Assembly: GCF_030845995.1 (NCBI RefSeq) | Contig: NZ_CP132719.1 | Span: 806,001-870,000, forward strand | Direction of reading: 5' to 3' | Length of the DNA: 64,000 bases | DNA from: Geothrix sp. 21YS21S-4 | Lineage (GTDB): Bacteria; Acidobacteriota; Holophagae; Holophagales; Holophagaceae | In this document: positions 29,126 through 57,955 of the stretch, one piece after another | How the letters are laid out: the number at the start of each line of letters is the position of its first letter | Position numbering within the stretch: position 1 is the stretch's first letter | Notes under the pieces: model-generated | What the model saw: only the letters and a program-made list of their open reading frames with translations | Database searches by the model: none | Told to the model about the DNA's origin: nothing | Translations under genes and position numbers: made by a program

Positions 29126-29425
29126 ATGAAGAAGTTCCTCACCACCGCCTTCCTGTTCACCCTGGCCGCCGTCGCCTTCGCGCAGGGCGCCCCCGTGGTG
29201 GTTCAGAAGAGCCTGTTCGAAGGCCAGTTCGTGGCCCACCTCTCCCTCGCCATCGCGGCCGCCGGCTGCGGTCTGGCCCAGGGCAAGGCCGTGGTCGCCG
29301 CCTGCGAGGGCGTGGCCCGCAATCCCCAGGCCGCCGGCAACATCCGCACCACGATGATCATCGGCCTGGCCCTCATCGAGGCCCTCGTGATCTACGTGCT
29401 CGTCGCCGCCTTCGCCATCAAGTAG
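29126..29425 (+). CDS. atpE: ATP synthase F0 subunit c, with signal-like N-terminus
   Basis: A 99-residue c-ring subunit: an N-terminal hydrophobic segment ending AFAQ that looks like a cleavable signal (about 1-20), then two helices joined by the polar loop ARNPQA. The ion-binding Glu is in GLALIEALVIY. Compared with the sodium-type c subunit of Ilyobacter, the Gln of helix 1 and the Tyr after the Glu are kept, but the Ser-Thr pair following the Glu is replaced by Ala-Leu, so proton coupling is more likely (inference). AAGGAG lies eight bases before the start. A terminator follows directly. Confidence 0.95.
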   Translation: MKKFLTTAFLFTLAAVAFAQGAPVVVQKSLFEGQFVAHLSLAIAAAGCGLAQGKAVVAACEGVARNPQAAGNIRTTMIIGLALIEALVIYVLVAAFAIK

Positions 29426-29444
29426 GCCCGATCCGCGCACGCCC

Positions 29445-29472
29445 AAGGGCGCCCCTCGGGGCGCCCTTTTTT
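29445..29472 (+). terminator. Rho-independent terminator after atpE
   Basis: AGGGCGCCCC (29446-29455) and its complement (29458-29467) form a ten-pair stem with a two-base loop, followed by TTTTT. It closes the atpB-atpE unit. Confidence 0.88.
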
Positions 29473-29499
29473 CATGATTTCCCCGCGGGGCCGATCAGA

Positions 29500-30681
29500 A
29501 TGCTGGACGCTATGCGAAACGAATCCCTCTTCCCCATGCCCCCGGAGATCACCCAGGTCATCCTGGGGGGCGGGTCCCCCATCGATCTGGATGGCCTGCG
29601 GATCCAGTCCCACGACGAGGCCTGGAACTTCGCCCTCAACTACGGCTACGACATGAGCATCCCCAGCCAGTGGGCGCGGGTGGTGAAGGTCTACGAGGAC
29701 GCCATCGATTTCCTGGAAGGCGTGGTCCTGGAAGGGACGGACCTCCACGTGCCCCACGAGTTGCGGACGCTGGGCGATCCGCTGGATCTCCTCGTATGGG
29801 CGTCGGAGCGGCCCCGTACCTTGGACGGGCGCTGGTCCTGCGCCGTCCTGCGGGTGATGCACACCCTCTTCCACGTGGACCACAACGTGAACCTGCGGTA
29901 TCTCCCGGAGATCCAGCGCCAGGTCTTCGACCGCTACGACCAGTACCTGGTGTGCGAGGACGGGCGGTGGTGCCTGCGGGGGGCCTACGACGTGCCGCTG
30001 GTGACGGTGGAGCGGAAGGAGAACAAGGACCGCGTGTCCATGCTCCTGAAGATGCTGCACAAGCCCGAGAACGTGGCGGAGACCATCTACGACCAGATCG
30101 GGATCCGCCTGGTGGCCGAGGACCAGCTGGGCGTCCTGATGGTCATCCGCTTCCTGCTGGACCACCACGTCCTGATGCCCACCCACATCAAGCCCAGCCG
30201 CAGCCGGAACCTGATGATCGACCTGGAGGCCCTGGCCGCCTGGACCGAGGCCATGCCCCCGCTCTTCCAGGTCTACGACCTCAGTTCCGAGGAGCGCCGG
30301 GCCCTCAGCCACACCCTGGCCCTGAAGCCGGGGAGCCAGGAGCAGAATCCCTTTTCCAGCAAGGATTACTCCGCCGTCCAGTTCACGGCCCGCACCCTGA
30401 TCCGCCTTCCCGGGCCAGCGGCCCCAGCCCTGGAGAGCGTCCAAAAGCGGCTGGAGAGCCTGGGACGATCGGATTTGGTCGATCTTGCCCGCATCCCGGA
30501 GTTGATCCAGGAACAGGAGGAGTTTACGTTCTTTTTTGCACATGAAGTCCAAGTGATGGAACAATCGGGGTTTCAAAGCTCACGATCCGGTCCTGCATCC
30601 CATTCGGAATACAAACAGCGCCAGCGGGACGCTGCGCGGCGCAGGGTGCTTCAGGGAATTCTTCAGGAGGAACCATGTTGA
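29500..30681 (+). CDS. Uncharacterised protein with RelA/SpoT-like nucleotidyltransferase residues
   Basis: A 393-residue cytoplasmic protein without membrane segments. I recall a conserved uncharacterised family of this shape in deltaproteobacterial predators (possibly TIGR04552), but cannot verify it. Residues 173-203 resemble the (p)ppGpp synthetase core: Lys176, Ser180 and Lys184 spaced as in the K-x3-S-x3-K of RelA/SpoT, then Asp198 and Arg203 in DQIGIRLV, spaced like the magnesium-binding D-x4-R. A later IDLEAL (Glu243) could be the catalytic Glu. The Gly-Tyr-x-Ser-x-His segment that stacks the nucleotide is not evident, so activity may be altered or lost. It overlaps the anti-sigma antagonist gene by 7 bases. 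A second start at 29512 is possible. Confidence 0.7.
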   Translation: MLDAMRNESLFPMPPEITQVILGGGSPIDLDGLRIQSHDEAWNFALNYGYDMSIPSQWARVVKVYEDAIDFLEGVVLEGTDLHVPHELRTLGDPLDLLVWASERPRTLDGRWSCAVLRVMHTLFHVDHNVNLRYLPEIQRQVFDRYDQYLVCEDGRWCLRGAYDVPLVTVERKENKDRVSMLLKMLHKPENVAETIYDQIGIRLVAEDQLGVLMVIRFLLDHHVLMPTHIKPSRSRNLMIDLEALAAWTEAMPPLFQVYDLSSEERRALSHTLALKPGSQEQNPFSSKDYSAVQFTARTLIRLPGPAAPALESVQKRLESLGRSDLVDLARIPELIQEQEEFTFFFAHEVQVMEQSGFQSSRSGPASHSEYKQRQRDAARRRVLQGILQEEPC

Positions 30682-31013
30682 ACATCCAGACCCGCCAAGA
30701 GGGCGTCGCCTCGGTGGTGTCGATTCAGGGGAAGGTCAATTTCGAAGTGACCGCCCAGCTGAGGGACGTGATCCGGGAGACCGTCGCGACGGTGCAGCCC
30801 AAGCTCCTGGTGATCAACCTGGAGGGCGTCAGCTTCATCGACTCGTCGGGCCTGGGCCTCCTCGTGGCCGCCCGCAACAGCGTGGACAAGTCCGGCGGCA
30901 AGCTGCACCTGTGCTGCCTGCCCGCGCCGGTCAAGAAGACCTTCGACCAGACCAACCTCACCAACTACTTCTCCATCTTCTCCACGGAACAGGACGCCCT
31001 GCGGGGCGCCTGA
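30675..31013 (+). CDS. STAS-domain anti-sigma factor antagonist (SpoIIAA/RsbV type)
   Basis: A 112-residue single STAS domain. The phosphorylation loop VSFIDSSGLGLLVAARN places the acceptor at Ser57/Ser58, the same spacing as Ser58 of SpoIIAA. Such proteins bind an RsbW-type kinase when unphosphorylated, freeing a sigma factor or another target. AGGAGG precedes the start and the gene overlaps the RelA-like gene. The next gene encodes a phosphatase of the class that dephosphorylates these antagonists. No RsbW kinase or sigma factor gene is adjacent, so the partners must be encoded elsewhere. Confidence 0.93.
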   Translation: MLNIQTRQEGVASVVSIQGKVNFEVTAQLRDVIRETVATVQPKLLVINLEGVSFIDSSGLGLLVAARNSVDKSGGKLHLCCLPAPVKKTFDQTNLTNYFSIFSTEQDALRGA

Positions 31014-31042
31014 GCGGGCACCTTCCCACCTGAGGAACCGGC

Positions 31043-32215
31043 ATGGGCAAGGGCGTAGTCCTGGTCGTGGACGATGAAGCACCGATCCGGGACATTCTGA
31101 CTTTCTACCTCAAGCGAGCGGGTTACCAGGTCCTGACGGCCGGGCACGGCGTGGAAGCTCTGGAGGAGATGGGCCGGGTGCGGCCCGATCTCATCATCTC
31201 GGATCTCCGCATGCCCGAGATGCCCGGGGACGAGCTGTGTAAGCGGGTGAAGAGCGATCCCGCCACCCAGGACGTGTACTTCATCATCCTGTCCGCCCTG
31301 GATGGAACGGCCACCCGGATCGGCGGCCTGTCGCTGGGCGCGGACGACATGATCCCCAAGCCCTTCCACGCGCAGGAGGTCCTTGCCAAAGTGGATTCCA
31401 CCTTCCGCCTCATTGCGATGCAGAAGGAGATCAAGCGCCAGAACAAGGAGCTGACGGCCTTCCAGGAGCGCGTGCGCGAGGAGATGGAACTGGCGGCGGC
31501 GCTGCAGATGGGCCTGCTTCCCAAGCTCCCCGGCGAAGCCCCGGGCTCGCACTACACCCACCGCTATTTGCCCGCCGCGGGGATCGGCGGGGACGTCTAC
31601 GCGATCCTGCCCCTTCCCGACGGATCCACGGCGCTGATGATCGCGGACGTGAGCGGCCACGGCGTCACCGCGGCGCTCATCTCGGCGATGGTGAAGACCT
31701 CCTTCGAGAACCAGGTGCGGCTGGGCGGCGAGCCCCTGGCCTGGGCCCAGGGGATGAACGAGGACCTCTGCCGGTCCACGCTGGCGGAGCAGTTCGCCAC
31801 CGCCTGGCTGGGGCGCCTGGAGCCGACGGCGGACCGCCTGCGCTACGTGGTCGCGGGCCACTGCGCGCCCCTGCGGATCGTCCGGGGCGCCCGCGGCGGG
31901 CTCCAGCGGTCCGAGGTGCTGCGCGGGAAGGGCTTCATGCTGGGCCTGGATCCCACGCTTCCCTTCACGGAGCACGAGACGGAGTTTCTGCCGGAAGACC
32001 GGCTGGTGCTCTATACCGACGGGCTGGTGGAAGTGGAGCGCGAGGACCGCGTCATGCTGGAGGAGGGCGGCCTGCGCCGCATCTGCGCGGAACTGCCCGT
32101 GGGCCCCGAGGAGGCCGCGGACGCCGTCGTCGCCCAGGCGCGGGCCTTCAACAGTCCCGCGCCCTTCGTGGACGACGTCACCCTGGTCGTCCTGGATCGA
32201 AAGCCCCGCCCGTAA
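31043..32215 (+). CDS. Response regulator fused to PP2C-type phosphatase (RsbU/SpoIIE family)
   Basis: A 390-residue protein: receiver domain about 1-125 (DDE at 10-12, phospho-acceptor Asp54 in LIISDLRMPEMPG, Lys106), a helical linker rich in Glu/Lys/Gln (125-160), and a PP2C/SpoIIE domain about 165-388. The metal-binding residues are visible in IGGDVYAI, IADVSGHGVTAALIS and PFVDDVTLVVL. It should dephosphorylate a STAS antagonist, almost certainly the product of the preceding gene 29 bases upstream, when its receiver is phosphorylated by an unknown histidine kinase. This layout is common in deltaproteobacteria and acidobacteria. Confidence 0.93.
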   Translation: MGKGVVLVVDDEAPIRDILTFYLKRAGYQVLTAGHGVEALEEMGRVRPDLIISDLRMPEMPGDELCKRVKSDPATQDVYFIILSALDGTATRIGGLSLGADDMIPKPFHAQEVLAKVDSTFRLIAMQKEIKRQNKELTAFQERVREEMELAAALQMGLLPKLPGEAPGSHYTHRYLPAAGIGGDVYAILPLPDGSTALMIADVSGHGVTAALISAMVKTSFENQVRLGGEPLAWAQGMNEDLCRSTLAEQFATAWLGRLEPTADRLRYVVAGHCAPLRIVRGARGGLQRSEVLRGKGFMLGLDPTLPFTEHETEFLPEDRLVLYTDGLVEVEREDRVMLEEGGLRRICAELPVGPEEAADAVVAQARAFNSPAPFVDDVTLVVLDRKPRP

Positions 32216-32221
32216 CGCCCG

Positions 32222-33157
32222 CTACAGCTCCTTGAGGGTGGCCGCGATGCCGGCCTCCAACTCCGTGAAGGGCGCCGTGAAGCCCGCGGCGCGCAGGCTC
32301 CGCACGTCCGCCTGGGTGAAGCTCTGGTACTTGCCGCGCAGGACCTCGGGGAACGGGATGTACTCGATGCGTCCCCGGCCCAGGTGGGCGATGAGGGTCC
32401 GGGCGATGTCGTTGAAGCTGCGGGCCCGGCCCGTCCCCGCGTTGTGGATGCCCTTCGCCATGGTCCCGCCGCCGAAGTGCAGGTTGATGGCCACCACGTC
32501 GCCCACGAAGACGAAGTCGCGCTCCTGGTCGCCGTTCCCGTAGCCGTCGGTTCCCTCGAACAGGCGGCACACGCCCTCCTCCTTGAGCTGGCGGAGAAGC
32601 TGGTGGAGGACCGACATCATCCGTCCCTTGTGGTCCTCCCGCGGGCCGAAGACGTTGAAGTAGCGCAGGCCCACCACGGGACTCTGGATGGCGGGAAGGA
32701 GGCTACGGACGTGCTGGTCGAAGGCCAGTTTGGAGTAGCCGTAGACGTTGAGGGGCCCCTCGTTCGCGGGGATGGGCTCGAAATCGGGACTGGCGCCGTA
32801 GGTGGCCGCGCTGCTGGCGTAGACCAGGGGCGCCTTCCGCGCCAGGCACCAGTGGAGCAGGGCCCTGGAGTCTCCGTAGTTGTTCTCCATCATGTAGCGG
32901 CCGTCGGCTTCCATGGTGTCGGAGCAGGCCCCGTTGTGGAACACGGCTTCGGGCTGGAGGTCCAGAGTTCCGGCGTCCAGGCGGGCGCGGAACTCGCGCT
33001 TGTCCATGTAGTCCGCCAGCGTGAGGTCCGCCAGGTTCCGGGCTTTCTCGGCGCGCGCCAGGTTGTCCACCACCAGGATGTCCGTGTGCCCGCGCCGGTT
33101 CAGCTCCCGCACCAGGTTGCTGCCCACGAATCCCGCGCCGCCCGTGACGATGAACAT
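32222..33157 (-). CDS. hldD: ADP-L-glycero-D-manno-heptose-6-epimerase
   Basis: A 311-residue extended short-chain dehydrogenase. The nucleotide-binding site is IVTGGAGFVGSNLVREL, the catalytic region SSAATYG and NVYGYSKLAFD (YxxxK), and FHNGACSDTMEADG and GLRYFNVFGPREDHKG are HldD-specific blocks. It converts ADP-D-glycero-D-manno-heptose to the L-glycero form used in the lipopolysaccharide inner core. ATG at 33157 follows GAGGAG at good spacing; a GTG two codons upstream would lack a site. It is the last gene of a minus-strand cluster that includes a GT9 heptosyltransferase-like enzyme, consistent with a heptose-containing core. It converges with the phosphatase gene, leaving 6 bases. Confidence 0.95.
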   Translation of the reverse strand: MFIVTGGAGFVGSNLVRELNRRGHTDILVVDNLARAEKARNLADLTLADYMDKREFRARLDAGTLDLQPEAVFHNGACSDTMEADGRYMMENNYGDSRALLHWCLARKAPLVYASSAATYGASPDFEPIPANEGPLNVYGYSKLAFDQHVRSLLPAIQSPVVGLRYFNVFGPREDHKGRMMSVLHQLLRQLKEEGVCRLFEGTDGYGNGDQERDFVFVGDVVAINLHFGGGTMAKGIHNAGTGRARSFNDIARTLIAHLGRGRIEYIPFPEVLRGKYQSFTQADVRSLRAAGFTAPFTELEAGIAATLKEL

Positions 33158-33187
33158 GCCCACTCCTCTTCCGTTCCAGGATAGCGA

Positions 33188-53316: not shown

Positions 53317-55245
53317 GTGGGTCTGCTTCCGGACGGAGTCCCCGACCGCTTCCGCACCGCCTGGGCGGGGTTCCGCTTCCGGCGCCACTGGCCGTGGGTG
53401 GCGGTGGTGTGGGGCATCCTGCTGGCGCTGCCGCCGGGGCGTTCGGGCTGCGCGGCGCTGCTGCTGTGGATCGGCGGGCCCGTGCTCGCCTTCCGCGGGC
53501 TGCGGTGGATCTGGGACCGGCTGCTGTTCCGGGTGTCGCGCCGGCTGTGGGTCATCCTCGCGCTGATGTCCGCGCTGCCCGTGGCGGCCCTGGCCCTCGC
53601 CTTGATGGCCCTGAGCTGGCTGGGGCTGGGCGCCCAGGTGAGCCGGTCCACGCAGCAGGCGCTGGGCACCTGGGAAGGGGCCCTGAAGATGGCCGCCCGC
53701 GAGCCCGGCGACGCCGCGGCGCTGCAGCTCCTGCGGAGCTATGGCGACGCGTGGGTGGAGCATGTCCGCGAGCTGCCTCCGGGCGTTTCCGAGACCTTCC
53801 TCGGGATGGTGTGGGCGGACCACCGCGAATCTGATCCCGGCGCGCCCGGGCAGGACACCTACCTCCGCGCGGTGCGGAAGGAGCCCGGCGGCTACCGCGT
53901 CCTATCGCTCCCCCTGGGCGTTCTGGGGGATCGCACCCAGGCGCTGGCGGGGGGACAGGTGGCCTTCGGCCTCGCGCCCCGCCAGGGCGAAGACGGCCAC
54001 AGGATGCGGATCCGGGCCGGGAAGGAAAGCCGCGAATCGGCGGTTCTGGTGGGCCAGGGGGAGGCGCTGGCGGCCTGGACCAAGGGCGTGCCCCTGGAGG
54101 GTTCGGGGCTGTTCGCCCCCTTCCGCCTGCCGCCCCTGGCCTTCCCCCTCACCGAGTGGGCCACGGGCCGGCCCCTGGTGCTCACCGCGACGCCGGAGAC
54201 GAACCTCTACGCCCTGTTCGCGGGCTACCGCAGTGGGGAAGGCCAGGCCCTGTCCGAGGGCATGGTGAAGGCCGTGGTGGTGCTGACCCTGGTGCTCGTC
54301 GCCCTGCTTCTCGCGCAGCTGGTGGCGGCGCTGCTGGGGCTCGTCCTGGCCTGGTCCCTCGGGCGGGCCGTGAACGACCTCCACGGCGGCGTGAAGCGCC
54401 TCAGCCAGGGCGATTTCACGGCCCGCATCCGGCCCCGGGGCCGCGACCAGGTGGCCCACCTCTCCGCGGCCTTCAACGAGATGGCGGGCCGGCTCCAGAC
54501 CGCCGCCACGGAGCGGGAGGAGCGGCTGCGGATGGAGGAGGAACTGCGGGTGGCCCGCGAGGTCCAGATGCGCCTCCTCCCCGACCTGGAAGCCCTGCGG
54601 ATGCCGTCCATCCGCGCGACGATCCTGCCGGCGCGGGAAGTGGCGGGCGACTACTACGACCTGTTCCCCCTGCTGGACGGCGGCCTGGCCTTCCTCATCG
54701 CCGACGTCAGCGGGAAGGGCACCAGCGCCGCCTTCTACGCCGCGGAGACGAAGGGCGTCCTGTCTGCCCTGGACAAGCAGGCCCTGGGGCCCGCCGAGGT
54801 GGCGGAGCGCCTCAACGCCATCTGGTGCGGGGGCCACGGTCGGAACCTGTTCCTCACCCTCGCCTACGGGACCTTCCATCCCCGCACCGGCCGGTTCGCG
54901 TTCGTGCGGGCGGGCCATCCTCCGGCCTACCTCCGCCGCGCCGACGGCACCGTGACGCGCCTCCAGCCGAAGGGCCTGGGCATCGGGCTCACGGCCACCC
55001 GCTTCGCCGCCGCCACCGAAGTCTGCGAAGGGAGCCTGGAACCGGGCGACTGCCTGGTGTTCTTCACGGACGGGCTGTCCGAAGCCCAGGACGCCGCGGG
55101 CGGGTTCTACGGCGAAGCGCGGCTGGAAGCCCTGCTTCGCGGCCCTGCGGAGAACCTGCAGGCCGCCATCCTCGCCGACGTCGTCGCCTTCACCGCCGGG
55201 TGTCCCCTGGCGGACGACCTCACCCTCCTGATCCTCAGCCGCTGA
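53317..55245 (+). CDS. Membrane PP2C-type serine phosphatase with HAMP domain (RsbU family)
   Basis: A 642-residue protein. Two or three hydrophobic segments lie in the first 105 residues, an extracytoplasmic region follows to about 310, then a membrane segment (about 312-345), a HAMP domain (346-400), and a helical linker with REVQMRLLPDLEAL. The C-terminal SpoIIE/PP2C domain (about 430-640) has AREVAGDYYDLFPL, IADVSGKGTSAAFYAA and CPLADDLTLLIL with the metal-binding aspartates. It should dephosphorylate a STAS-type antagonist in response to an external signal. GTG at 53317 follows CGGAGGA. It lies 13 bases after fabG and faces, tail to tail, a Ser/Thr kinase gene 4 bases away. Confidence 0.88.
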   Translation: MGLLPDGVPDRFRTAWAGFRFRRHWPWVAVVWGILLALPPGRSGCAALLLWIGGPVLAFRGLRWIWDRLLFRVSRRLWVILALMSALPVAALALALMALSWLGLGAQVSRSTQQALGTWEGALKMAAREPGDAAALQLLRSYGDAWVEHVRELPPGVSETFLGMVWADHRESDPGAPGQDTYLRAVRKEPGGYRVLSLPLGVLGDRTQALAGGQVAFGLAPRQGEDGHRMRIRAGKESRESAVLVGQGEALAAWTKGVPLEGSGLFAPFRLPPLAFPLTEWATGRPLVLTATPETNLYALFAGYRSGEGQALSEGMVKAVVVLTLVLVALLLAQLVAALLGLVLAWSLGRAVNDLHGGVKRLSQGDFTARIRPRGRDQVAHLSAAFNEMAGRLQTAATEREERLRMEEELRVAREVQMRLLPDLEALRMPSIRATILPAREVAGDYYDLFPLLDGGLAFLIADVSGKGTSAAFYAAETKGVLSALDKQALGPAEVAERLNAIWCGGHGRNLFLTLAYGTFHPRTGRFAFVRAGHPPAYLRRADGTVTRLQPKGLGIGLTATRFAAATEVCEGSLEPGDCLVFFTDGLSEAQDAAGGFYGEARLEALLRGPAENLQAAILADVVAFTAGCPLADDLTLLILSR

Positions 55246-55249
55246 TCGC

Positions 55250-57955
55250 TCAGCGCGCGGCGGTCAGTTCGCGCACGATTTCCGGCGCCTGGACCTTCGC
55301 TCCGGCCAGGGCCTTGGCGAAGAGGGCCTGGGCCTCTTCCGTGCGGCCCTCGCTCCGGGCCAGCCAGGCCTGGGCGCGCAGGATGTAGGGGGTTTCCTCG
55401 GCGGAGCGGGCGCGGCTGCGCTCCAGCAGGCTGCGGCCCAGGGCGCGCCGGCCTTCCCGGGCGAAGCACTCGGCTTCCCCGGCCAGGCAGTGGGCCTCCA
55501 TGGAGGCGTCCCCCAGCTCCTGGTGGAGGGCGAGGGACTGGGCGTAGAACCCCCGTGCGGACACGTAGCGGCCGGCGGTGCGGTGGATCTCCCCCAGGTT
55601 GTAGAGCGCGAGGCCCTCCTTGGGGCGGAGGCGGGTCTTGCGCGCCTGCTCCAAGAACCGCTCCCCCATTTCCTGGGCGCGGTCCAGGTCGCCCCGGGCC
55701 TGGGCGACGCTGGCGAGGCCCATGAAGGAGACGGCCAGCCCCGCCTCGTCTCCCAGCGTCTGCTGGAGGTCGCGGGTCTGGCGGTAGAACGCGTCGGCGC
55801 GGTCCAGCCCGCCCTCCTGTGCCAGGGCCAGATCGCCGAGATTGCCCGTCAGCAGGGCTTCCCCCCACCGGTCCCCGTGGGCGCGAACGGTCTTGAGGGC
55901 GTTGAGGTAGTGGGCCTCCGCCGCCGGGAGGTTGCCCCGCGACCGTTCCACCACCGCCAGGTTGTTGAGGGCGTGGGTGGCGTTGAGGGCATCGCCGCTG
56001 CCCTGGTAGAGGTCGAGGGACTTTCGGTACTCGGCCTCCGCGTCGGACAGCTTGCCCAGCCGCTGGAACTCCATGCCCCACAGGAGGTGGACGCCGGCCT
56101 CGAAGGCCGTCTGGCCCAGGGCCTGGGCCAGGGCCATGGTGGCCCGCCCGGTCTCTTTCGAGGCTTCCCACTCGCCGCGGGCGGCCTGGTCGCCGGACAG
56201 GTAGTGGAGGGCCTTCATTTCCGAAAGGCGGTCGCCGTGGGCTCGGGCCGCCCAGCGGGCCCACTGGAACACGGGCGCGGCGGGAGCCTCCGTCAGATGG
56301 GCCAGGCACCGGGCGTAGCCGAGGACGGCGGGGGCGAAATCCGGCGCCAGGGTGGCCGCGGCCAGGAAGGCCGGGGCGGCTTCCTTGAAGAGCCCCCGGT
56401 CCATCAGCTCCGCGCCCCGGGCGTAGGCGTCCAGGATCTCCTCCCGCAGGGCGGGGAGCGAGGTGGACGAGGAGGCGCCCGCCGCCCGGACGAGCTCCGC
56501 CGTCAGCCGCCGTGCCAGGGGCAGCGCCACCACCGGGCGGTCGCCGGGCTCGCGAAGCTCGCCGGCCCGGCGCACCCGTCCCTTCGCGTCGACCAGTTCG
56601 TAGGTGAGGACGGCCTCTCCGTCCGCGTTCCGGGCGAGTTTCCCGCGCAGGGTGAGCTGCGCGCCCAGCGCCGCGGCCAGGTGCGTCTCGGCATCCCGGG
56701 CGAGGGCGCCCCGCGGCGCGAGATGCAGGGAGGCGCGGGCGCGGCCCAGCGTGTCCGCGTCCAGGGGGGCCAGCTTGGGGTGGCCGCTGAGGGCGGTCTC
56801 CAGGATCTCCGGCAGGATCAGGTGGGTGGCCGCGTCCAGGCGGGGATCGCCGGTGGCGTTGAGGAAGGGCATCACAGCCAGGCGCGCGGGGCGCTCCCGC
56901 GTCAGGTCGGCGATGGCGCCCCGGTTCAGGAAGAGGTGGACGCCCAACCCCCCCGCCAGGGCCGCGGCGGTGCCCACCGCCGTCCAGCGCAGCAGGGTCC
57001 GGGGGCGGAGCAGCCGGTCGAGGGTCTCCACCACGCGCCCCGCGGTGGGCCGCTTGAAGGGGTGGGGCTCCAGCATGGCCCGCAGCAGGTCCGCCGTGCC
57101 CGAGGGCAGGCCGCGGGTCTTCCATTCCCGGCGATCCCCCGCCAGCGTGGCCTGGAGGCGCGCCCGGCCTTCGCCGGGAAAGGGATGCTCGCCCGCCAGC
57201 AGTTCCCAGGCCACCACCCCCAGGGAGAACACGTCGCTGGAGGAACCCGCCGCTTGGCCCTGGATCTGCTCGGGGGAGGCGTAGCCGGGGCTGCCCATGA
57301 AGGTGCCCGCCTGGGTGAGGCGCTCCCAGGAGCGGCCGGAGGTCCCCGACGGCGGTGGGTGGGTCGCCCCGTTCCCCGCCGGATCCGAAGCGGCGGGCCG
57401 CGCGGGCGCATCGTCGCTCGCCCGGCCATCTCCCAGCCGGGCGAGGCCGAAATCCAGGACCTTCACGTGGAGGGGCTGGGTGGCCGAGCGGGGCACCACC
57501 ATGATGTTGCTGGGCTTCAGGTCGCGGTGGACCAGGCCCTTCGCGTGGGCCGCCTCCAGGGCGTGGGCCACGGCGCGGATGACCTGGAGCTTTTCCCGCG
57601 TGCTGAGCTCCGCCTGATCCAGGGTGGAACCCTCCACCAGCTCCATGGCGATGAAGGCGCCCTGGGGACCGTCCACCCAGTCGTGGATGTGGCAGACGCC
57701 GGGATGGTTGAGCTGGGCCAGGGCCAGGGCTTCGCGCCGGAACCGCTCGACGGCGCCCGTGTCCCCGGCTCCCCCCGGATGCAGGGCTTTCAGGGCGACG
57801 CTGCGCTCCAGCGCCGAATCCCAGACCCGGTAGACCTCGCCCATTCCGCCGGTGCCAAGCAGCGCCTCCACCCGGAAGCGCCCGATGACGGCCCCGATGG
57901 CCAGGATCCGGGACTCGGCGGCGGAGTCGGACGAAGGCGGGAAGTCGTTGGACAT
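55250..57955 (-). CDS. Transmembrane serine/threonine protein kinase with TPR repeats
   Basis: A 901-residue protein. The kinase domain (about 25-320) has the Gly loop LLGTGGMGEVYRVWD, Lys56 in VALKALH, HRDLKPSN (Asp145, Asn150), DFG (168-170) and a GTFMGSPGYASPEQ activation segment; an Ala/Pro-rich insertion of about 45 residues precedes the latter. One membrane helix (about 335-352) follows, then a TolB/FlgO-like domain (about 365-505) and about seven to nine TPR-type repeats to the C-terminus. The layout is common in Acidobacteriota and Myxococcota. It converges with the phosphatase gene. It starts at 57955, divergent from the S9 peptidase with a 97-base shared upstream region. Confidence 0.93.
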   Translation of the reverse strand: MSNDFPPSSDSAAESRILAIGAVIGRFRVEALLGTGGMGEVYRVWDSALERSVALKALHPGGAGDTGAVERFRREALALAQLNHPGVCHIHDWVDGPQGAFIAMELVEGSTLDQAELSTREKLQVIRAVAHALEAAHAKGLVHRDLKPSNIMVVPRSATQPLHVKVLDFGLARLGDGRASDDAPARPAASDPAGNGATHPPPSGTSGRSWERLTQAGTFMGSPGYASPEQIQGQAAGSSSDVFSLGVVAWELLAGEHPFPGEGRARLQATLAGDRREWKTRGLPSGTADLLRAMLEPHPFKRPTAGRVVETLDRLLRPRTLLRWTAVGTAAALAGGLGVHLFLNRGAIADLTRERPARLAVMPFLNATGDPRLDAATHLILPEILETALSGHPKLAPLDADTLGRARASLHLAPRGALARDAETHLAAALGAQLTLRGKLARNADGEAVLTYELVDAKGRVRRAGELREPGDRPVVALPLARRLTAELVRAAGASSSTSLPALREEILDAYARGAELMDRGLFKEAAPAFLAAATLAPDFAPAVLGYARCLAHLTEAPAAPVFQWARWAARAHGDRLSEMKALHYLSGDQAARGEWEASKETGRATMALAQALGQTAFEAGVHLLWGMEFQRLGKLSDAEAEYRKSLDLYQGSGDALNATHALNNLAVVERSRGNLPAAEAHYLNALKTVRAHGDRWGEALLTGNLGDLALAQEGGLDRADAFYRQTRDLQQTLGDEAGLAVSFMGLASVAQARGDLDRAQEMGERFLEQARKTRLRPKEGLALYNLGEIHRTAGRYVSARGFYAQSLALHQELGDASMEAHCLAGEAECFAREGRRALGRSLLERSRARSAEETPYILRAQAWLARSEGRTEEAQALFAKALAGAKVQAPEIVRELTAAR

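Follow-up and report, generated by a model that had tools for sequence, protein, structure and literature searches.

The window (the whole stretch of DNA analysed, 64,000 nucleotides) belongs to a Holophagaceae genome of 3.08 Mb in a single contig, closest among named relatives to Geothrix. Three plus-strand genes (Table 1) occupy the interval from the atp operon, in which atpE ends at 29425, to a convergent sugar-epimerase gene (32222-33163). The ORF positions confirm the three same-strand ORFs, their coordinates and the 7-base overlap between gene 1 and the STAS gene given in the preliminary description, and most Holophagaceae have the same coupling. Its identification of the other two products as a STAS protein and a response-regulator phosphatase also stands, with strong domain assignments for STAS and for REC plus SpoIIE (E = 3.5e-23, 3e-24 and 7e-42). 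The phosphatase matches PF07228 at 143.9 bits and its translation contains the metal-binding Asp motifs GGD, ADVSG, TDG and DDVT. The start codon kept across gene 1 relatives is the second ATG, at 29512, and not the one at 29500, so the gene 1 protein is probably 389 aa long. A GC hairpin and a T run are found at the place equivalent to the terminator of the atp operon in most of 11 related loci. A simple scan, which covers the sigma-70 type only, found no such promoter 5' of gene 1, and no known RNA family was matched within the window.

Table 1. Features of the gene 1 locus, in window coordinates.
Feature	Position	Strand	Remarks
Intrinsic terminator of the upstream atp operon	29445..29474	+	10-pair stem 29445-29468 plus T tail; 26-38 bases 5' of gene 1
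Gene 1, TIGR04562/TIGR04552 family protein, predicted RelA/SpoT (RSH) synthetase fold	29500..30681	+	393 aa; likely true start 29512
N-terminal all-helical domain, residues 15-125	29542..29874	+	candidate regulatory/docking domain (putative function)
RSH synthetase domain, residues 126-385	29875..30654	+	predicted; match to 5ded
Putative donor (ATP phosphate) motif K176-x3-S180-x3-K184	30025..30051	+	48/48; aligned with K80/S84/K88 of S. aureus RelP (PMC5794853)
D198-x2-G-x-R203, putative Mg-binding Asp and adenine-stacking Arg	30091..30108	+	48/48; aligned with D107/R112 of RelP (PMC5794853)
Putative G-loop equivalent N283-P-x-S-x3-Y290-x-x-x-Q294	30346..30381	+	Y/F at 290; Gln in place of canonical His
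E349-V-Q351, putative catalytic/Mg Glu and adenine-contacting Gln	30544..30552	+	48/48; aligned with E145/Q147 of FaRel2 (PMC11782079)
G-P-A-S-H368-x2-Y-K372	30589..30615	+	probable counterpart of GIAAHWKYK in long RSHs
STAS protein, anti-sigma antagonist type	30675..31013	+	112 aa; TIGR00377 85 bits (cut-off 53)
D56-S57-S58-G59, phosphorylation-type motif of the STAS protein	30840..30851	+	intact in Holophagaceae
Response regulator with SpoIIE/PP2C phosphatase domain	31043..32215	+	390 aa; receiver Asp54

Gene 1 codes for a member of a catalogued protein family. The protein scores 422.2 bits against TIGR04562 (cut-off 140) and 392.7 bits against TIGR04552 (cut-off 125), both over its full length, and all seven other members tested also score above the NCBIfam cut-off. 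The entry is named "TIGR04552 family protein", function unknown, a name that appears in a mutation table of evolved Bdellovibrio (PMC9888234). The Pfam RelA_SpoT model (PF04607) scores 14.6 bits on the gene 1 protein, below its gathering cut-off of 27, and is matched by 46 of 47 members at E values up to 1, the best being 4e-6. With the family profile searched against PDB sequences, YwaC ranks first with the same motif at a weak E value of 0.13; in the reverse direction, long RSHs match the family model weakly over the same stretch. Aligned profile to profile with canonical Rel synthetase domains, the family again scores weakly (E = 0.0023, probability 13), with all catalytic motifs in register. 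The K-x3-S-x3-K and D-x4-R motifs earlier placed at residues 176-184 and 198-203 are indeed there, and their order and spacing recurred in 23 of 20,000 shuffles of the gene 1 protein (0.1%).

A structure was predicted for the gene 1 protein from 47 sequences (pLDDT 87, pTM 0.81). When it was re-aligned to the PDB, the best 28 structures were all RSH synthetases with Z from 11.8 to 7.0, and the next fold, that of unrelated polymerases, reached a Z of 6.4 or less. The best match was SasB/RelQ (5ded; Z 11.8, 3.6 Å over 152 residues, model 126-373). The first 28 Foldseek matches were RSH synthetases too, with E of about 1e-3 and probabilities up to 1.00. Because both methods put RSH synthetases first, the RelA/SpoT synthetase fold is a secure assignment for the modelled protein, and this nucleotidyltransferase fold bears out its earlier description as RelA/SpoT-like. 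As in RelP/RelQ (SasA/SasB) and the synthetase domains of long RSHs, which the model resembles over residues 126-373 at Z 10-11.8, there are counterparts of the donor Lys, Ser and Lys, the Mg Asp and Glu, the Arg of DxxxxR and the Gln of ExQ. What sets the gene 1 protein apart from these enzymes is an additional helical domain of 125 residues at the N-terminus, long insertions that precede the G-loop and the EVQ strand, Gln at the position of the His, Tyr or Phe where they have Tyr, no Arg at R-x-K, and a sequence score under the Pfam cut-off. With no match for the N-terminal domain model among solved structures by Foldseek or re-alignment, no HD-domain Pfam match in gene 1 and no H..HD..D metal-site pattern among the invariant residues, a degenerate HD hydrolase, considered as a candidate for this domain, found no support in these comparisons.

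Conservation was counted over 48 members, including the divergent gammaproteobacterial L190 on its very long branch. K176, S180, K184, D198, R203, E349, Q351 and H368 are unchanged in all 48. By profile-profile alignment and motif order, and not by inspected coordinates, the residue roles described for RelP and FaRel2 (PMC5794853, PMC11782079) would fall on K176 (K80 in RelP, K66 in FaRel2), S180 (S84, S70), K184 (K88, K74), D198 (D107, D90), R203 (R112, R95), E349 (E174, E145) and Q351 (Q147 in FaRel2). The nucleotide-stacking Tyr/His segment, earlier thought to be missing, is present as N283-P-F-S-S-K-D-Y290-S-A-V-Q294, which the profile-profile alignment sets against GYxSLH. The aromatic residue at 290 is Tyr in the window protein, and in the family 19 of the 48 members have Tyr and 29 have Phe; the His of GYxSLH is replaced by Gln294 in 48 of 48. 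The second adenine-stacking Arg (R78 in RelP, R64 in FaRel2) corresponds to position 174, which varies (E/R/N/S/D/Q/K/H/T), beside a nearly invariant Lys173. A Tyr-to-Phe change at the G-loop impairs FaRel2 (PMC11782079). Since Phe is common at 290 and this change cripples FaRel2, we do not class the family with the (p)ppGpp synthetases; given Tyr or Phe at 290, Gln for His and the adenine-stacking Arg not kept, the product need not be (p)ppGpp. The three departures (a variable position 174 in place of the Arg, Gln for His at 294 and, in many members, Phe for Tyr at 290) and the window protein's Pfam score under the gathering threshold would suit an RSH-fold protein without catalysis that serves as a scaffold or as a nucleotide receptor. 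Typical pseudo-enzymes, however, do not keep their active sites as this family does, in which the donor Lys and Ser, both Mg ligands (Asp, Glu) and the adenine Gln are invariant in 48 of 48 widely divergent members, and loss of catalysis is improbable. To judge from the conserved residues, this RSH-fold family is probably active, a candidate enzyme with another acceptor or the same one.

Among the Acidobacteriota, 25 of 297 genomes encode a protein above the family cut-off. All belong to Holophagaceae, in which two further genera have no gene 1. In nearly all Holophagaceae the gene occupies a single, core-gene-like location. Four relatives in another family of the class also code for gene 1 proteins, at 34-37% identity, and over the five loci outside Holophagaceae (Acanthopleuribacteraceae and allies, L051-L054, and also L119) the identity is 31-36%. 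The family is rare in Pseudomonadota (2 of 398 genomes above the cut-off), and a scan of genome contigs added Oxalobacteraceae, Sphaerotilaceae, Comamonadaceae and Lysobacteraceae. L119 and L190 have long branches and their placement in the tree is unsure. BFVD gave weak matches only, some of RSH type. The window genome also encodes a canonical 834-aa Rel, so gene 1 would code for an extra enzyme; in Duganella, the gene 1 relative is the third, beside two long RSHs. Compared by listed taxa alone, TIGR04552/TIGR04562 may be bdRel, a small alarmone synthetase subgroup of β/δ-proteobacteria (Atkinson et al. 2011, PMC3153485): TIGR04552-type proteins occur in β-proteobacteria and Bdellovibrio (PMC9888234), whereas the Acidobacteriota are outside the listed bdRel range.

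An RSH fold, a small partner and overlapping genes also recall toxSAS systems, and CapRel scores Z 7.3 in the structural comparison. FaRel2 and CapRel (PMC11782079, PMC9712102) likewise combine an RSH fold with a small regulatory partner or domain, and the FaRel2 residues K66, S70, K74, D90, R95, E145 and Q147 all have putative gene 1 counterparts. They differ in that R64 has no positional counterpart in gene 1, that the partner of gene 1 is a STAS protein and not a zinc-finger-like antitoxin, and that gene 1 has no sign of mobility. The viral contigs and plasmids searched held no gene 1 relatives and PADLOC gave no match, and a phage or plasmid origin was rejected on these grounds. The locus is moreover fixed in nearly all Holophagaceae, in the manner of a core gene, and the solo proteobacterial members do without STAS, which together make it very improbable that STAS is the antitoxin of a toxSAS-type toxin-antitoxin or phage-defence pair.

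In 34 of 34 Holophagaceae genomes, gene 1 is followed by the STAS gene and then the phosphatase gene. The STAS gene also follows gene 1 in each of the five deeply diverged loci from the neighboring family (L051-L054, L119), where no phosphatase is encoded within 5 kb. The pair is flanked by atpBE and the phosphatase, by atpBE and a flagellar gene, or by unrelated genes and pnp-rpsO, with atpB-atpE upstream in Holophagaceae and L119, and other genes and pnp-rpsO in L051-L054. The STAS proteins of the distant loci match the window STAS better than they match the three other STAS proteins of the window genome, and in the tree STAS-linked genes are on both sides of the deepest Holophagae split. 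Because STAS was kept across changed flanks and across this split, gene 1 and the STAS gene, which alone is constant among its neighbors in these genomes, are the conserved unit; the phosphatase is a later partner, in Holophagaceae only. Thus of the three-gene module first proposed, the gene 1-STAS link holds, its order being kept also beyond Holophagaceae, but the phosphatase is a local addition, and the three genes together were rejected as the conserved unit since the related family lacks the phosphatase. No STAS neighbor was found at the proteobacterial loci in the neighbor survey and, for four loci, by tblastn; STAS is therefore not needed everywhere. A conserved neighbor in the Oxalobacteraceae was also rejected, as neighbors there differ from genus to genus. 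It is conceivable that gene 1 and the STAS gene share an old operon and act separately. Operons can persist through descent, proteobacterial members have no STAS nearby and the phosphatase joined solely in Holophagaceae; however, the pair stayed together while the flanking genes changed between families, and the 7-base overlap couples the two genes in most Holophagaceae, making mere co-location unlikely.

Acanthopleuribacteraceae have an altered Ser motif in STAS, and in L119 the motif is gone, with DAAG in its place. Phosphorylation is therefore not a universal control, and in the second family and L119 STAS may be a constitutive or otherwise controlled subunit. No RsbW-type kinase is encoded adjacent to the locus; orphan and paired RsbW-like kinases are found elsewhere in the genome. 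One orphan, at G000:C1:1934576, is matched by homologues in each of the 31 relatives examined, whether or not they carry gene 1. It therefore cannot be assigned to gene 1-STAS, and it was rejected as an obligate partner because it is also present where gene 1 is absent. The preliminary description had a sensor feeding the partner switch. In that case the gene 1 protein would make or sense a nucleotide and so control STAS, whose own targets would be an anti-sigma kinase of the RsbW type and a sigma factor. The DSSG kept in the window STAS, the classification of this protein as an anti-sigma antagonist and the existence of the orphan kinase, with homologues in 31 of 31 relatives, are consistent with this direction. 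But that kinase is not tied to gene 1, the STAS phospho-motif is not kept everywhere the pair is, and the conservation pattern of gene 1 is that of an enzyme and not of a receptor. No evidence was found that favors the sensor over a switch acting on the enzyme, and we regard it as fairly unlikely.

Our preferred reading, held tentatively at a probability of about 0.45, is that gene 1 encodes an RSH-type pyrophosphotransferase with its activity set by a STAS partner switch, which reverses the direction of the preliminary description. The fold, the invariant active-site residues, the retained gene 1-STAS linkage and the intact STAS and phosphatase motifs are observed; STAS binding, catalysis, the product, the direction of control and the kinase are what we infer. 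The protein would be an ATP-dependent pyrophosphotransferase whose product, a nucleotide pyrophosphorylated at the 3' position, would be an alarmone or something closely related to one. By analogy with other partner switches, the STAS protein would bind it, most likely via the helical N-terminal domain, and act as its on/off control. Upon a sensor kinase signal, the response-regulator phosphatase of Holophagaceae would dephosphorylate STAS at Ser57/Ser58, and an RsbW-type kinase encoded elsewhere would oppose it. The output of the switch would then be a nucleotide signal and not, or not only, a sigma factor.

A response-regulator phosphatase, a STAS-type antagonist and a second-messenger synthase bound by the antagonist are likewise found in HsbR-HsbA-HsbD of P. 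aeruginosa (PMC5085249, PMC6482189), in which HsbA binds the diguanylate cyclase HsbD according to phosphorylation state (PMC5085249). The gene 1 protein differs from HsbD in having an RSH fold, and no kinase adjoins the gene 1 locus. HsbR also carries a kinase domain. SiaABC-SiaD, also from P. aeruginosa (PMC7647112, PMC8457831), has a PP2C phosphatase, SiaA (PMC7647112), and an antagonist-like partner, SiaC, which activates SiaD through binding to its helical stalk (PMC8457831). Unlike the gene 1 locus, the Sia system has a diguanylate cyclase as its output and includes its own kinase, SiaB (PMC7647112), and SiaC is phosphorylated on Thr68. BgrUVW-BgrR is cited in PMC7647112 as a further partner switch on a nucleotide-signal synthase.

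The literature searched for alarmone enzymes joined to STAS partner switches held nothing on such a combination. Within that literature, the earlier statement that no system with an RSH protein, a STAS protein and a phosphatase has been described holds, although the family of gene 1 has catalogue entries, TIGR04552/TIGR04562. What is new is a fold assignment for the family, with an acceptor site that is unusual, and the finding that Holophagae, a class of soil and marine bacteria, have retained the link to STAS; the family name already existed. It is possible, if doubtful, that the family is a separate RSH branch with a changed acceptor site (Tyr/Phe, and Gln for His) that serves a non-(p)ppGpp alarmone or another 3'-OH, and that in Holophagae it is the direct output of a STAS switch, the first such case for an RSH. 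A family of unknown function from Acidobacteriota and Beta-/Gammaproteobacteria gains a fold and a likely chemistry, in hosts that already carry a long RSH or two. Should the STAS link prove functional, partner switching, known for sigma factors and diguanylate cyclases, would come to include alarmone enzymes, and would offer a phosphorylation-controlled route to stringent-type signalling that is independent of ribosome stalling. The invariant Gln in place of His makes acceptor specificity directly testable.

The strong terminator of the atp operon ends 26-38 bases before the start of gene 1, which encodes the TIGR04562/TIGR04552 family protein, with scant space between the two for an ordinary promoter. 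This hairpin before gene 1 is conserved in most relatives. Transcription of gene 1 may come from read-through, or from a promoter within atpE or within the hairpin itself.

A very divergent family member, encoded immediately past a parA-parB pair in a Pseudomonadota genome, retains all the catalytic residues. In Janthinobacterium, the gene next after the family member codes for a protein whose start resembles, by eye, a MEDS-type sensor domain; other genera have different neighbours at this position.

The window encodes a second SpoIIE-type phosphatase, a membrane RsbU-like protein, adjoined by a Ser/Thr protein kinase with repeats. Elsewhere in the genome is an orphan RsbW-like kinase, with no STAS or sigma gene adjoining. 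It is about 90% identical in all same-genus genomes examined and 32-40% identical across the class.

Locations of the features discussed
Feature	Location	Strand	Length (aa)
atpE to gene 1	window 29426-29511		
Membrane RsbU-like phosphatase	window 53317-55245	+	642
Ser/Thr kinase	window 55250-57955	-	
RsbW-like kinase	G000:C1:1934528-1934965		146
Janthinobacterium neighbour	L055 6150-8177		675
Divergent family member	L190 1477-2514
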